DNA of 64,000 bases from positions 558,001 through 622,000 of the forward strand of contig NZ_PVTK01000001.1 in NCBI RefSeq assembly GCF_003002925.1. The letters run 5' to 3'. This document shows, in pieces, positions 57,221-62,121 of this stretch. The notes under the pieces were generated by a model that was not told the origin of the DNA, made no database searches, and worked only from the letters and a program-made list of their open reading frames with translations. The stretch's first letter is position 1. Every line of letters starts with the position of its first letter. This DNA is from Vreelandella songnenensis. GTDB lineage: Bacteria; Pseudomonadota; Gammaproteobacteria; Pseudomonadales; Halomonadaceae. A program made the translations under genes and the position numbers.

Positions 57221-58195
57221 TCAGCCTAAGCGCTCTTCGCGTGGGGTCAGGCCAAAATGGTTGCGGTAGGCGGTCGAGAAGTGCGCGCCGGAGGAGAAGC
57301 CTGTCGCCAGCGCGATGTCACCGACTGCCCGGTCGCTTTCGCGCAGCTGTTTACGCGCATCCTGCAGGCGCAGATTCAGATAGTAACGGCTGGGTACCGC
57401 CTGCAGATACTTCTTGAACAGCCGCTCAAGCTGACGGCGGGAGATCCCCAGGTGCTCGGAAAGCTCCAGCGTGGAGAGCGGCTCTTCTATGTTGGCTTCC
57501 ATCAGCGTGACGGCGTCTACCAGGCTTTGCGGGGCATGTCCAAGGCGATGGCGCAGCGGTACATGCTGGCGCTCGTCCGCCAGACGAATGCGCTCGCACA
57601 TGAAGTGCTCTGATACCTGCTCCACCAGGCGGCCGCTGTGCTGTTGGCGTACCAGGGTCAGCATCATGTCCATGGCCGCCGTGCCGCTGGCACAGGTCAT
57701 GCGGTTACGGTCGATCTCGAAAAGCTGCTGCGATAGCGTGACCTGGGGATAGGCCTGGGCAAAGGTGGCAAAGCGCTCCCAGGGCAACGTGGCCCGGTAG
57801 CCATCCAGCAAGCCGGCGCGCGCCAGCACTTCTGCACCGCCGGCAAGCCCGCCAAGCACCGTGCGATTTGGCTGCTGGCGCAGCCACTCAACGAGTCTTG
57901 CAGGCAGCGCATAAGGGAGTGGCGAAGGCGCGCAGACCAGCACCATGTCCAGCCCCGGGGGCGAGGTCTCAAGGGCATAGTCGGTATTACAGGTCAACTG
58001 AGCGCTGCTGCGCACGGGCTGCTCATCGCTGTGCAGTGTAAATATCTGATAGAGCAGCTGGCCGCTCAGCTGGTTGGCCATGAACAGCGGCTCTACCGCG
58101 CAGGCATGAGAGAGCATGGAAAAGCCGGGCAGCAGTAATACGCCTATACGCTGACGCGTAAACGTGGAAGAAGAGGCCTGGGTGCTATGCTGCAT
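57221..58195 (-). CDS. argR: ArgR-type AraC-family regulator (GlxA/DJ-1-domain architecture)
   Basis: 324 aa. An N-terminal DJ-1/PfpI-like domain (about 16-185) precedes an AraC-type DNA-binding domain (about 225-320, STLELSEHLGISRRQLERLFKKYLQAVPSRYYLNLRLQDARKQL). Length and layout match the Pseudomonas ArgR, which activates aru genes for arginine catabolism, and here it sits directly upstream of astC in the same direction. I did not find a firm binding motif. Confidence 0.88.
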   Translation of the reverse strand: MQHSTQASSSTFTRQRIGVLLLPGFSMLSHACAVEPLFMANQLSGQLLYQIFTLHSDEQPVRSSAQLTCNTDYALETSPPGLDMVLVCAPSPLPYALPARLVEWLRQQPNRTVLGGLAGGAEVLARAGLLDGYRATLPWERFATFAQAYPQVTLSQQLFEIDRNRMTCASGTAAMDMMLTLVRQQHSGRLVEQVSEHFMCERIRLADERQHVPLRHRLGHAPQSLVDAVTLMEANIEEPLSTLELSEHLGISRRQLERLFKKYLQAVPSRYYLNLRLQDARKQLRESDRAVGDIALATGFSSGAHFSTAYRNHFGLTPREERLG

Positions 58196-58323: not shown

Positions 58324-58356
58324 TAAAAAAGGGGCAAGACGAAAACGTCTTGCCCC
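58324..58356 (-). terminator. Terminator of the PRC-barrel gene 58451-59257
   Basis: Perfect 11-bp stem GGGGCAAGACG (58331-58341) / CGTCTTGCCCC (58346-58356) with AAAA loop; on the minus strand it is followed by a six-T run, about 95 bp after the gene's stop. Confidence 0.88.
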
Positions 58357-58450
58357 TGTCGCTGGCGCTCGCTGAACCTGAAACTATTTAAACTACATCC
58401 CAGGCAATGCTGTCTTTAAAGCGTTAGCCAAACGACGTGCCATGAAACGC

Positions 58451-59257
58451 TTACTGCTGGTGCGCTTCAGATAGCGTCATGTCGCTATCGACTTCGGTAT
58501 AGTGATCTTCGTTGTACTCATCGGAAGACTCTTCGATCTGGTCGCTGCCATAGGTGGTATCCATTACCAGGCGATCGTCTTCGAGCTGCATTTCCTCGAG
58601 CGGCAGGGCAATATCGGTAGCGCCAAAGCCCCAGATACCGCCAACTGAGATGATCGCATACAGCTCGCCTGAGTCATTGTGCTTGGCGATGTGCTGCACA
58701 TCACCGATCTCTTCGTCATCCTGGTTGACTACCGTCATGCCTTCCAGGTCGCTGACATTGTGAGACATCAACGTAGTGGTACGCTCATCTTGATCAGCCC
58801 GCGCGTTGTCGTTATGGTCGCGGTCATTCTCTTGCTGATTGACGTCTACCTGAGCATCGTCAGCCTGTTCAACGTTTACATCAGGTTCGCCGCCCTGCTC
58901 AACGGTAACATTGGGCTCAGCGCGCTCGACGGTGACGTTTGGCTCGGGCTGCTCAATGGTTACCTCAGGTTCAGGCTGCTCGATAGTCACTTCCGGTTGA
59001 GACTGCTCGACGGTGATATCCGGTGATTCCTGCTCTACCTGAACGTCGGCAGGCTCTTGCTCCACCTGTACGTCCATGGTGTCTTCTTCTGTGCGTGCCT
59101 GAGTCGCATCTTGTGTGGTTGCCGGGGCATTTTGCTGCTGTGTCGTCATGCGATCAGCATTATCGGTATCGTTCTGGTTATTGTCCTGCGCCATAAGGCC
59201 ACCTGACATACCTGTAAAAATCGCACCGATAGCAATAGCGAGTGTTGTCCGTTTCAT
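58451..59257 (-). CDS. Secreted acidic PRC-barrel protein with VEQ-repeat array
   Basis: 268 aa. Signal peptide (1-23, cleavage after LMA), a Gln/Asp/Asn-rich linker, nine degenerate 9-10-residue repeats (62-141, e.g. DVQVEQEPA, DITVEQSQP, EVTIEQPEP, NVTVEQGGEP), another acidic linker, then a PRC-barrel (about 168-235, NVSDLEGMTVVNQDDEEIGDV) and an acidic tail (YNEDHYTEVDSDM). Highly acidic, as expected for halophile periplasmic proteins. PRC domains usually bind partners or structural surfaces; function unknown. Paralogue of 60096-60623. Confidence 0.85.
   Translation of the reverse strand: MKRTTLAIAIGAIFTGMSGGLMAQDNNQNDTDNADRMTTQQQNAPATTQDATQARTEEDTMDVQVEQEPADVQVEQESPDITVEQSQPEVTIEQPEPEVTIEQPEPNVTVERAEPNVTVEQGGEPDVNVEQADDAQVDVNQQENDRDHNDNARADQDERTTTLMSHNVSDLEGMTVVNQDDEEIGDVQHIAKHNDSGELYAIISVGGIWGFGATDIALPLEEMQLEDDRLVMDTTYGSDQIEESSDEYNEDHYTEVDSDMTLSEAHQQ
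58835..59074. repeat. Coding tandem repeats (VEQ units)
   Basis: About 240 bp encoding residues 62-141 of the PRC-barrel protein, nine units of roughly 27-30 bp. Units EVTIEQPEP (twice, adjacent) and DVQVEQExx (twice, adjacent) are near-identical, implying recent slippage or duplication. Confidence 0.75.
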
Positions 59258-59458
59258 TAGATCTCTCCTTGGGTTGGCTTACACTTATGAAGGCTAGTAG
59301 ATGAAGGTACAATAACGCAAAGTCAGTCGCCAAAACTTACAAATGTTAACAAATATGAAAGTGAGGCATGCAAGATTCCAGATCTTGAAATACCTGACTT
59401 CTTCGATAAATCAGAATCAGGCAATATATCCTCATATGCAGCTGCGAACCGCGCCTAA

Positions 59459-59803
59459 TTAATCCCGAGTATTACTGTTGCCTGCGCCCCGCTGTTCTTC
59501 TTGGAGCTCACGATTCATGCTCGATTGGTCTTCCATATCGAGATCGCTTCCATCCTGGCCTTGCTGAGGGCCTTGTGAACCTGTATCGCGGCTGTTTTTA
59601 TCGTTTTGATGATCATGGCTGTCGTTATTACCTGACTCGTGATCTGAATTGGCCGAGTCGTCGATACTACGCAGCTGTCCTGCCGTCGTATCTTCTTGTT
59701 GTGCTGATTGGCTATCATGGTGGCTGGCGCTGTTGGCAAAAGCACCTAGAGACAGACCGGTACATGTTGCACCAATGAAGGTAATTAATAGCATTCTTTT
59801 CAT
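59459..59803 (-). CDS. Small secreted disordered protein related to the neighbouring family
   Basis: 114 aa. Signal peptide (1-24, MKRMLLITFIGATCTGLSLGAFA, the same template as the two flanking genes) followed by a low-complexity hydrophilic region rich in Asp, Ser, Gln, Asn and His, without a PRC domain. Leader DNA just upstream (CTCAGGGAGAGAACCC) is also like those of its neighbours. It may be a diverged paralogue that lost the barrel or gained a different mature part. Function unknown. Confidence 0.65.
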   Translation of the reverse strand: MKRMLLITFIGATCTGLSLGAFANSASHHDSQSAQQEDTTAGQLRSIDDSANSDHESGNNDSHDHQNDKNSRDTGSQGPQQGQDGSDLDMEDQSSMNRELQEEQRGAGNSNTRD

Positions 59804-59930
59804 GGGTTCTCTCCCTGAGTTGGCGTGCTTTAATAAAGCTAGTTGAGCAACGTCATATCAAGCAATGCAAAACCGCCCTTCACTGAAAGTTGAATGAAAG
59901 TTATCAATTACTATTAAATATGCCAGGCAT

Positions 59931-59974
59931 TAAAAAGCGCCTTGCCTACCTTGATAAGATAAACAAGACGCTTT
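59931..59974 (-). terminator. Terminator of the second PRC-barrel gene
   Basis: AAAGCGCCTTG / CAAGACGCTTT imperfect stem (one mismatch) with about 19-nt loop; the minus strand runs into TTTTTA. About 120 bp after the stop of 60096-60623. Confidence 0.5.
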
Positions 59975-60095
59975 GACAGATCATTGAATCGCTAGTCTTA
60001 CACTACCGTTAAACTACCTGTTAGTTAGAACGGCCTTATCAATGAGCATTTGATGCTTCAACAACTGCTATCCCTATCCATAAAAGCTTTCGCCT

Positions 60096-60623
60096 TCAAT
60101 TAGGATGGCGCTGAGCTTCTTCCAGCGTCATGTTGTTATCAATCTGGCTGTAGTTGTCTTCATCGTACTTTTCCGCAGACGCTTCGATTTCATCGCTGCC
60201 GTAAGTGGTATTGGTGACCAGCTGATCGTCTTGCAGCTCGATTTCGGAAAGCGGCAAGGCGACTTCTTCATCGCCGATACCCCACAGACCGCCAATCGAA
60301 ATAATGGCGTAAAGCTCGCCGGACTCTTTATGCTCCACGATACGGCTGATGTTACCGATCTCTTCATCCTTCTGGTTGACGACCGACTCGCCCTCCAGGT
60401 CGCGCATCTCCTGAGACATCAGCTCATTGGAGTCGCGCTTTTCGTCGTTATCCGCCGGTCGATTGCCCCCGCCCATGGCAGCCGGGTGCTTTTCACCGGG
60501 AGTGCCTTGCTCCTCGATAACCTCGCTATCTCTCACAGTGCTATCGCTATCCTGGGCGAAGGCGCCCCCGGAAATTCCTGTACAGAGTGCAGCAATGGCA
60601 ATGGCTAACGTAGTCCGTTTCAT
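60096..60623 (-). CDS. Secreted acidic PRC-barrel protein
   Basis: 175 aa. Signal peptide (1-23, cleavage after AFA), acidic Asp/Asn-rich linker, PRC-barrel (about 75-140, MRDLEGESVVNQKDEEIGNISRIVE) and the shared acidic end (YDEDNYSQIDNNMTLEEA). Its barrel and tail align with those of 58451-59257, but the repeat array is absent. Shared upstream leader AAGGAGAAG suggests a common ancestor. Function unknown. Confidence 0.85.
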   Translation of the reverse strand: MKRTTLAIAIAALCTGISGGAFAQDSDSTVRDSEVIEEQGTPGEKHPAAMGGGNRPADNDEKRDSNELMSQEMRDLEGESVVNQKDEEIGNISRIVEHKESGELYAIISIGGLWGIGDEEVALPLSEIELQDDQLVTNTTYGSDEIEASAEKYDEDNYSQIDNNMTLEEAQRHPN

Positions 60624-60709
60624 AGAGCTTCTCCTTGAGTAAGCGGCTACTACAGATTAGTCGACCTGGTGAAAAACAACCAACTTCTAAAAAAAGCCCG
60701 CCCCCGATG

Positions 60710-60751
60710 ATGAATAAAACGCAAATTGCCGGGCGCTATGGCCCGGCAATT
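60710..60751 (-). terminator. Terminator of fabV
   Basis: Perfect 11-bp inverted repeat AATTGCCGGGC (60724-60734) / GCCCGGCAATT (60741-60751), 6-nt loop, 18 bp after the fabV stop; the minus strand continues TTTGCGTTTTATT. Confidence 0.75.
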
Positions 60752-60769
60752 CAGCAACCTCGTTGAGGC

Positions 60770-61966
60770 TTACAGATTGATGACGTCGAACTCGACGTTG
60801 GGGTCCACGTCTGCATCGTAGTCGACATCGTCACGTTCAAAACCGAACAGCTTCAGGAATTCGTGCTTGTAACCGGCGTAATCGGTGATCTCGAACAGGT
60901 TTTCCGTGGTGACTTCCGGCCAGAGATCCTGGCAAGCCTGCTGAATATCATCGCGCAGCTCCCAGTCGTCCAGGCGCAGCCGACCTTTCTCATCGGTGCT
61001 CATATCCGAACCATAAAGGCGCTCACCAAAGAGGCGGTTCAACTGGTCGATGGTGCCTTCGTGCACGCCCTGCTCTTTCATGATGCGATATACCATGGCG
61101 ATATATAGCGGCATGACCGGAATGGCAGCACTTGCCTGGGTGACCACGGATTTCAGCACCGCAACGTTGGCACCGCCGCCGCTGGTTTTCAGCTTGTCGT
61201 CGATGGCCGTAGCGGCGCGGTCCAGATCCTCTTTCGCCTTGCCAAGCGCACCGTGCCAGTAGATCGGCCAGGTGATTTCCGTGCCAATGTAGCTGAACGC
61301 CACGCTGCGCGCGCCCTGGGCCAGCACGCCTGCCTGGTCGAGCGCCTCCATCCACAATTCCCAATCTTCGCCGCCCATCACGGTGATGGTGTCATCGATT
61401 TCCTGCTGGGTAGCTGGCTCGACTTCGGCCTCGATGATCGTATCCTTGTTGGTATCGATGGCGGTCGCGCGGTAGGTCTCGCCAATCGGTTTCAGGCTGG
61501 AGCGCTTGAGCTCACCGCTGTCCGGCAGCTTGCGCACCGGGGATGCCAGCGAATACACCACCAGATCAATCTCGCCCATGTCCTGCTTGATCAGCTCGAT
61601 GGCCTTTTCACGCGCTTCATGGGAGAAGGCATCGCCATTGATGGATTTGCTGTAAAGGCCTTCTTGCTTGGCGAACTTGTCGAAAGCAGCGCTGTTGTAC
61701 CAGCCCGCGGTGCCTGTTTTCTTGTCGCTGCTGGGCTTTTCAAAGAATACGCCAAGGGTATCGGCGCCGTAGCCGAAGGCGGCGGTAATACGCGCAGCCA
61801 GGCCATAGCCGCTGGAGGCACCAATTACCAACACCTTCTTGGGGCCGGCGCTTTTATCCAAACCGCGTGCACGGGTCGCTTCGATCTGCTCGCGAACGTT
61901 CTGCTCACAGCCCTTGGGATGAGTCGTCGTGCAGATAAAGCCGCGCACTTTAGGTTTAATAATCAC
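60770..61966 (-). CDS. fabV: Enoyl-[acyl-carrier-protein] reductase FabV
   Basis: 398 aa, NADH-dependent last step of fatty acid elongation, the triclosan-tolerant isozyme of FabI. NADH motif GASSGYGLA (49-57) and the FabV catalytic pair Tyr236-x8-Lys245 are present, along with [17 protein letters not shown] start typical of FabV. The GTG start at 61966 is chosen because it yields this N-terminus and has CGAGG upstream; the frame continues 17 codons further. A terminator follows it. Confidence 0.95.
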
Positions 61967-62121
61967 ATCGGACCTCGTTATCGGATTGATTTCATTATCG
62001 GCATGACAATGCCGCAAGCGATGGAGGCTATTTTAGCCTGCCAGGCGAGCGCTGTCCGCTCTTGAGCTTAGTTGCCTTTCACGGCACGATAGTGCCCCCT
62101 CCCGCCAAAGCCCAAGAGGCC

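Follow-up and report, generated by a model that had tools for sequence, protein, structure and literature searches.

The window, i.e., the whole 64,000-nucleotide stretch of DNA that was analysed, comes from a Vreelandella/Halomonas-type genome, which bears out the halophile setting proposed in the first-pass annotation. It holds three consecutive genes on the minus strand, here named A, B and C, whose open reading frames and differing mature parts were recovered as that annotation had described them. Gene A (58451-59257) encodes 268 amino acids, consisting of a signal peptide at about residues 1-23, a Q/N-rich linker, nine repeat units of 9-10 residues and [DEN]V.VEQ.EP type at about residues 62-144, and a PRC barrel at residues 167-237, followed by a C-terminal extension. 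Gene B (59459-59803) encodes 114 amino acids, a signal peptide with a low-complexity acidic tail rich in D, S, Q and N, and has no barrel. Gene C (60096-60623) encodes 175 amino acids, with a signal peptide, a short acidic linker, a PRC barrel at residues 74-141 and a C-terminal extension. The trio is flanked upstream by fabV, coding for enoyl-ACP reductase (60770-62017), and downstream by a gene for an AraC-family regulator (57221-58195), both on the minus strand and both conserved as neighbours. The regulator is GbdR-like, scoring 340.7 bits and thus below the NCBIfam cut-off of 480. The reading frames beside it we take to be astC/argD-like and astA-like, and arginine rather than choline use may be its regulated target.

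In the profile searches PF05239, the PRC-barrel family, was matched by A at 37.6 bits and by C at 37.4 bits against a cut-off of 21.2, while B gave no match to it at E 1, its tail holding no domain. In A, the family DUF6470 (PF20074) reached 27.0 bits, below its cut-off of 28.9, with the best stretch in the repeats; the same cut-off was exceeded by the relatives at loci L073, L098 and L099. Against NCBIfam, A gave weak matches to TIGR04526 and TIGR03789, both far under the cut-offs. The AF2 models of A and C had a mean pLDDT of only 63.7 and 68.7. Their barrels had pLDDT values, in blocks of ten residues, of 80-94 in A and of 79-89 in C, the latter with the exception of blocks of 62 and 66, and the spacers were modelled as unstructured. 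Structure searches with both barrels matched 3htr, the H subunits of reaction centres (RC-H), RimM and CdpB. The nearest solved structure, 3htr from Rhodopseudomonas palustris, was found with A at a Foldseek E of 2.2e-5 and with C at a Z of 8.4 and an rmsd of 3.1 across 83 residues. This Z is modest, yet the sequence profile agrees with the fold. A and C share both score and fold with PF05239 and 3htr, and their membership in the PRC-barrel family is an ordinary one; they differ from it in that their barrels are flanked by signal peptide, acidic spacer and C-terminal extension, and in the barrel-less B. Several of the matched structures are docking domains, and by their entry titles 3a1p is RimM with S19 and 8qzo is CdpB1 with CdpB2. 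Because of these matches, we read the barrel as a putative protein-docking module, which would end a disordered, salt-tolerant acidic spacer, the array in A and the short linker in C.

Alternatively, the array of A could be a periplasm-spanning tether, whose nine-residue V.VEQPEP units would bring the cell wall or the outer membrane within range of the end domain, with C and B as shorter siblings. Such a tether would agree with the spacing of 9-10 residues held by the counted Halomonadaceae arrays, and with the similar repeats before an OmpA domain in Wenxinia (L099). However, AF2 gave no ordered rod but an array without structure, in pLDDT blocks of 38-60, array-less relatives exist, and we know of no cell-wall binding by a PRC barrel. 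We consider the tether unlikely and proceed with the docking module on a disordered spacer.

The strong acidity claimed for all three proteins was confirmed, as A, B and C rank below all the others in net charge per residue among the 55 window reading frames tested. The three lowest values are -20.5, -14.9 and -10.5 per 100 amino acids, the median being -1.7; these 55 were greedily chosen, non-overlapping frames of at least 110 amino acids and may include some non-genes. Export had also been claimed, and the signal peptides look the part: judged by sequence and a crude rule, they appear to have a basic N-end, a hydrophobic core and a cleavage site of A.A type, the end being LMA in A and AFA in B and C. 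The mature parts contain no cysteine and hence no lipobox. The proteins would be exported by Sec and signal peptidase I and would then be soluble in the periplasm. Acidity of this degree can be read in another way, with the spacers as a periplasmic buffer for cations (Ca2+/Mg2+) or for holding water, and the barrel as a stabilising cap only. This is consistent with the high D+E content (24.3% in A, 22.3% in C) and with the sub-cut-off EF-hand-like pair in two relatives described below, but the barrel is more conserved than the spacer among the C proteins, and the Pfam profile search gave no EF-hand match in the proteins of the window. A buffer with a capping barrel thus seems rather improbable.

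The near-identity claimed for the signal peptides was overstated. The number of identical residues among 23 is 17 for A/C, 12 for A/B and 14 for B/C, which fits A and C loosely and B not at all, and the corresponding DNA is identical at 47, 37 and 40 of 69 positions. In gapped comparisons with shuffled sequences, the signal-peptide DNA of only A/B and B/C slightly exceeded the 95th percentile. The last 40 bases upstream were identical, without gaps, at 19 (A/C), 24 (A/B) and 17 (B/C) positions, and none of the upstream stretches in the window exceeded the 95th percentile of the shuffles when gaps were allowed. Of the 21 paralog pairs in seven genomes, five passed this percentile with their last 45 upstream bases; these were A/B from three genomes and A/C from two. 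What is left of the claimed near-identical leaders upstream is a spaced promoter-like box in common. Signal-peptide DNA in the seven genomes had a mean identity of 76.9% for orthologs; for paralogs it was 66.5% within one genome and 67.6% across genomes, which does not point to exchange within genomes. Neither the signal-peptide DNA nor the barrel trees support leader swapping or gene conversion.

A terminator of its own had been assigned to each gene. This holds for C, which is followed by a 19-bp hairpin and a U-rich stretch (59934-59974, z -3.99), and for A, followed by a 12-bp hairpin and a T run (58330-58357, z -3.27), but not for B, after which the hairpin scan found nothing notable against shuffles (z 0.10). 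A further terminator-like hairpin after fabV (60722-60753) separates that gene from C; all these hairpins are on the minus strand. The region holds five terminator-like sites against a shuffle mean of 4.7, so that only the strong ones count.

The promoter-like boxes follow the pattern TTGNNT, 17 bases, CTARYYT, whose last part starts 37-40 nt ahead of the ATG in all three genes. On the minus strand, A has TTGCGT-N17-CTAGCCT (59291-59320, 40 nt before ATG), B has TTGCTT-N17-CTAGCTT (59836-59865, 39 nt) and C has TTGGTT-N17-CTAATCT (60654-60683, 37 nt), the last with a weak match to the other genes. The strict pattern has three matches in the 3.69-Mb genome, all at A, B and C, and six in the reversed control; as it was drawn from these three sites, the count describes and does not test. 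Weight matrices were trained on the sites of one gene outside the window and then scored on the window. With the matrix from 14 A-labelled sites, B ranked second at 25.7, the best unrelated site having 13.3, and C ranked fifth at 11.7, behind two unrelated sites (13.3 and 12.4). The matrix from six B sites placed A second (14.1 against 12.8), and that from six C sites gave B 9.4 against an unrelated 9.1, with A not among the best eight. The putative promoter shared by A and B is firm at the level of these motif scores, and its extension to C is weak. The pattern was absent from 4 of 19 A-labelled upstream regions and lay 56 nt before ATG in a fifth; both A-labelled sets, the 19 regions and the 14 sites, include the array-less L064 and L066. 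A genome-wide regulon on the same promoter was discarded, as the strict pattern was found only at A, B and C. A fixed-spacing pattern had no match genome-wide, A, B and C included, and a looser CTAGC pattern had 11, of which the one at A belongs to the trio, its reversed control having 6. A sigma-70 scan of the region found two promoter-like sites, where 3.1 would be expected, and neither coincides with a box. The textbook sigma-S box is CTATACT, from which CTARYYT differs. Sigma-S promoters are recognised by C at -13, T at -12, A at -11 and T at -7, all of which the boxes keep, and rpoS is encoded in the genome. We suppose that each gene would be turned on as a separate unit by a promoter of stress type, which may be an RpoS one. 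For the ectoine promoter of H. elongata the source, as far as consulted, calls the role of sigma-38 unclear, and it reports a deletion in Halomonas which put in doubt a sigma-38 assignment made by promoter sequence (PMC5924526).

Related genes, whose absence elsewhere the first-pass annotation had considered fatal to its reading, were found in other halophiles. A barrel match at E 1e-10 was present in 28 of 82 genomes of the same genus (26 of the 73 of good quality), and the other 54 had none, from which we conclude that the genes are dispensable. Full-length C (E 1e-96 or better) was found in eight of the 82, and B (E 1e-7) in the same eight. All eight trio genomes, namely those of the window, L056-L061 and L138, keep the order fabV-C-B-A-regulator, and seven of them gave the profile rows. 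Of the first 20 loci, 14 (L056-L069) carry a member of the family flanked by fabV and the regulator, and neither flank was visible in the stretches of the other six (L070-L075); a lone short array-less gene occupies the site in L137. A looser search (E 1e-3) matched 46 of 61 genomes, distant PRC proteins included. A named scan of GTDB 220 with a single genome for each species, based on repeat-derived patterns which cannot pick up array-less genes, and possibly omitting records of the window's own genome, gave 28 loci. Twenty-two of these are from Vreelandella, Halomonas, Litchfieldella or Billgrantia, and six, two of them from one organism, from what in some cases we presume to be Rhodobacteraceae. 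The nearest named relative was Vreelandella aquamarina MB598, with 81% for A. In the comparison of loci, identity to the nearest relative was 81% for A, 58.8% for B and 90% for C. Among 273 other genomes of the class, a draw in which the family had just one further genome, one (G132) matched repeats and barrel, and 14 matched the barrel and no more than some of the stretch before it.

Several variants were seen around these loci. In two A-type relatives, L071 3535-4464 and L088 4001-5014, the signal peptide is separated from the array by an EF-hand-like pair, to which four Pfam EF-hand families match in each protein, all below their cut-offs. A-type genes are split into two reading frames in L063 (4034-4819) and L069 (4239-5093), either by natural loss or by assembly error, and a TAG lies inside the gene in G019. 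A divergent pair of reading frames, bactofilin-like by eye, sits between A and the regulator in L057 (6280-6861 and 7066-7635) and L061 (2224-2784 and 2986-3573). An 83-aa frame and a 498-500-aa frame, FAD-oxidoreductase-like by eye, sit between fabV and C in L057 (2027-3814) and at the same place in L058-L060. The window has neither of these two insertions. The window's own genome encodes two more exported-looking PRC-barrel proteins, L035 1432-1884 on contig 8, beside a frame we take to be OsmC-like, and L039 1285-1770 on contig 3. By eye, CTACCTT stands about 43 nt before the ATG of the latter, and no such box was seen upstream of the former. In four of the five Rhodobacteraceae proteins (L098-L101, L103), V.V.Q-type repeats of a similar kind lead up to a C-terminal domain, which is PRC in L098, L100 and L103 and OmpA in L099, L101 having neither. 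These are arrays of Alphaproteobacteria, and by the same pattern they are less regular in L100, L101 and L103. The protein of Wenxinia marina (L099 4004-5179) has the same kind of nine-residue repeats, with the OmpA domain in place of the PRC barrel.

The claim that the set is diversifying was not supported, since gene order is the same in all eight trio genomes and dN/dS against the nearest relative is low, 0.077 for A, 0.133 for B, where dS is near saturation, and 0.072 for C. The comparison of repeat numbers that had been suggested was made across species; by a strict pattern, array-bearing Halomonadaceae genes have 5-9 repeats, and A has 9 in both the window and the nearest relative. The parts had also been described as swapped, but C barrels group by gene and not by species. 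In the barrel tree the eight C barrels form one clade (100/99), and the array-less single genes L064, L066, L140 and L137 another (97/95). These two clades group together with a support of 86/94, the array-bearing A genes falling outside them, and placing the array-less genes with A instead was not rejected (p-AU 0.14). We had also considered L064, L066 and L140 as A genes with a replaced spacer and dropped this, the enlarged tree joining them to C with the values just given. The tree suggests an old duplication into A and C, after which lineages may have kept A, C or both. A set diversified by recombination, with leaders kept and mature parts exchanged, would account for the spacer types that differ by lineage (array, short linker, long DTDTD linker, EF-hand-like insert) and for B proteins ranging from 102 to 207 amino acids. 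The grouping of C barrels by gene, signal-peptide DNA without homogenisation, the constant order and the low dN/dS all speak against it, and we regard it as very improbable.

Against the A profile, B aligned over the first 48 columns (98.1%, E 1.3e-13), and against the C profile, more weakly, over 41 columns (E 2.5e-10). The match to A covers the signal peptide, which makes up nearly half of it, and part of the Q-rich linker, and on this alignment B is best read as a probable copy of A that lost array and barrel. It might also be a decaying duplicate without function, as could be argued from its fast change (58.8% identity to the nearest relative, where A has 81% and C 90%), from a dN/dS of 0.86 for its signal peptide alone, and from its missing terminator. 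On the other hand, B was matched in all eight trio genomes, single stops in three of these being the ends of the reading frames, its whole-gene dN/dS was 0.11-0.16 in three pairs (the window pair with dS near saturation), and the promoter-like box is kept. We see little chance that B is in decay, and it could instead be an acidic disordered filler or a decoy without docking.

The three paralogs of the locus, very acidic, exported by their look and of the PRC-barrel kind, form a tandem set that is stable. The best explanation as a whole, to which we give about an even chance, is an exported acidic PRC-barrel stress trio, in which A, B and C would help in protecting or organising the envelope during stress or stationary phase. 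A much bolder version, which we hold to be a long shot, has the trio as one co-inherited periplasmic system, with A and C docking the same envelope partner at long and short reach, B as a matched disordered component with the leader and promoter type of the other two, and one promoter type whose exact pattern is unique in the genome. In the parts of the sources consulted, PRC-barrel proteins appear in general-stress or heat-shock lists (PMC6599016, PMC3989490, PMC6180224, PMC7660261), among them one of the Sphingomonas EcfG list, SMb20522 of Sinorhizobium, mll3685 of Mesorhizobium and an AvaK-like protein of Nostoc, and one is enriched in archaeal vesicles (PMC10927574). The stress-list proteins have the PRC barrel in common with the trio, belong to other phyla or classes with other sigma factors, and their likeness to it is known at the domain level only. 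The open-access literature searched gave no published description of a PRC-barrel protein in Halomonas. As a discovery the locus is modest. PRC-barrel proteins recur in bacterial stress lists, whose relevant passages give no mechanism, and the conserved trio, with its barrel-less B and the spacer variants of other halophiles, would make a handy test case for telling the role of the barrel from that of the acidic spacer.
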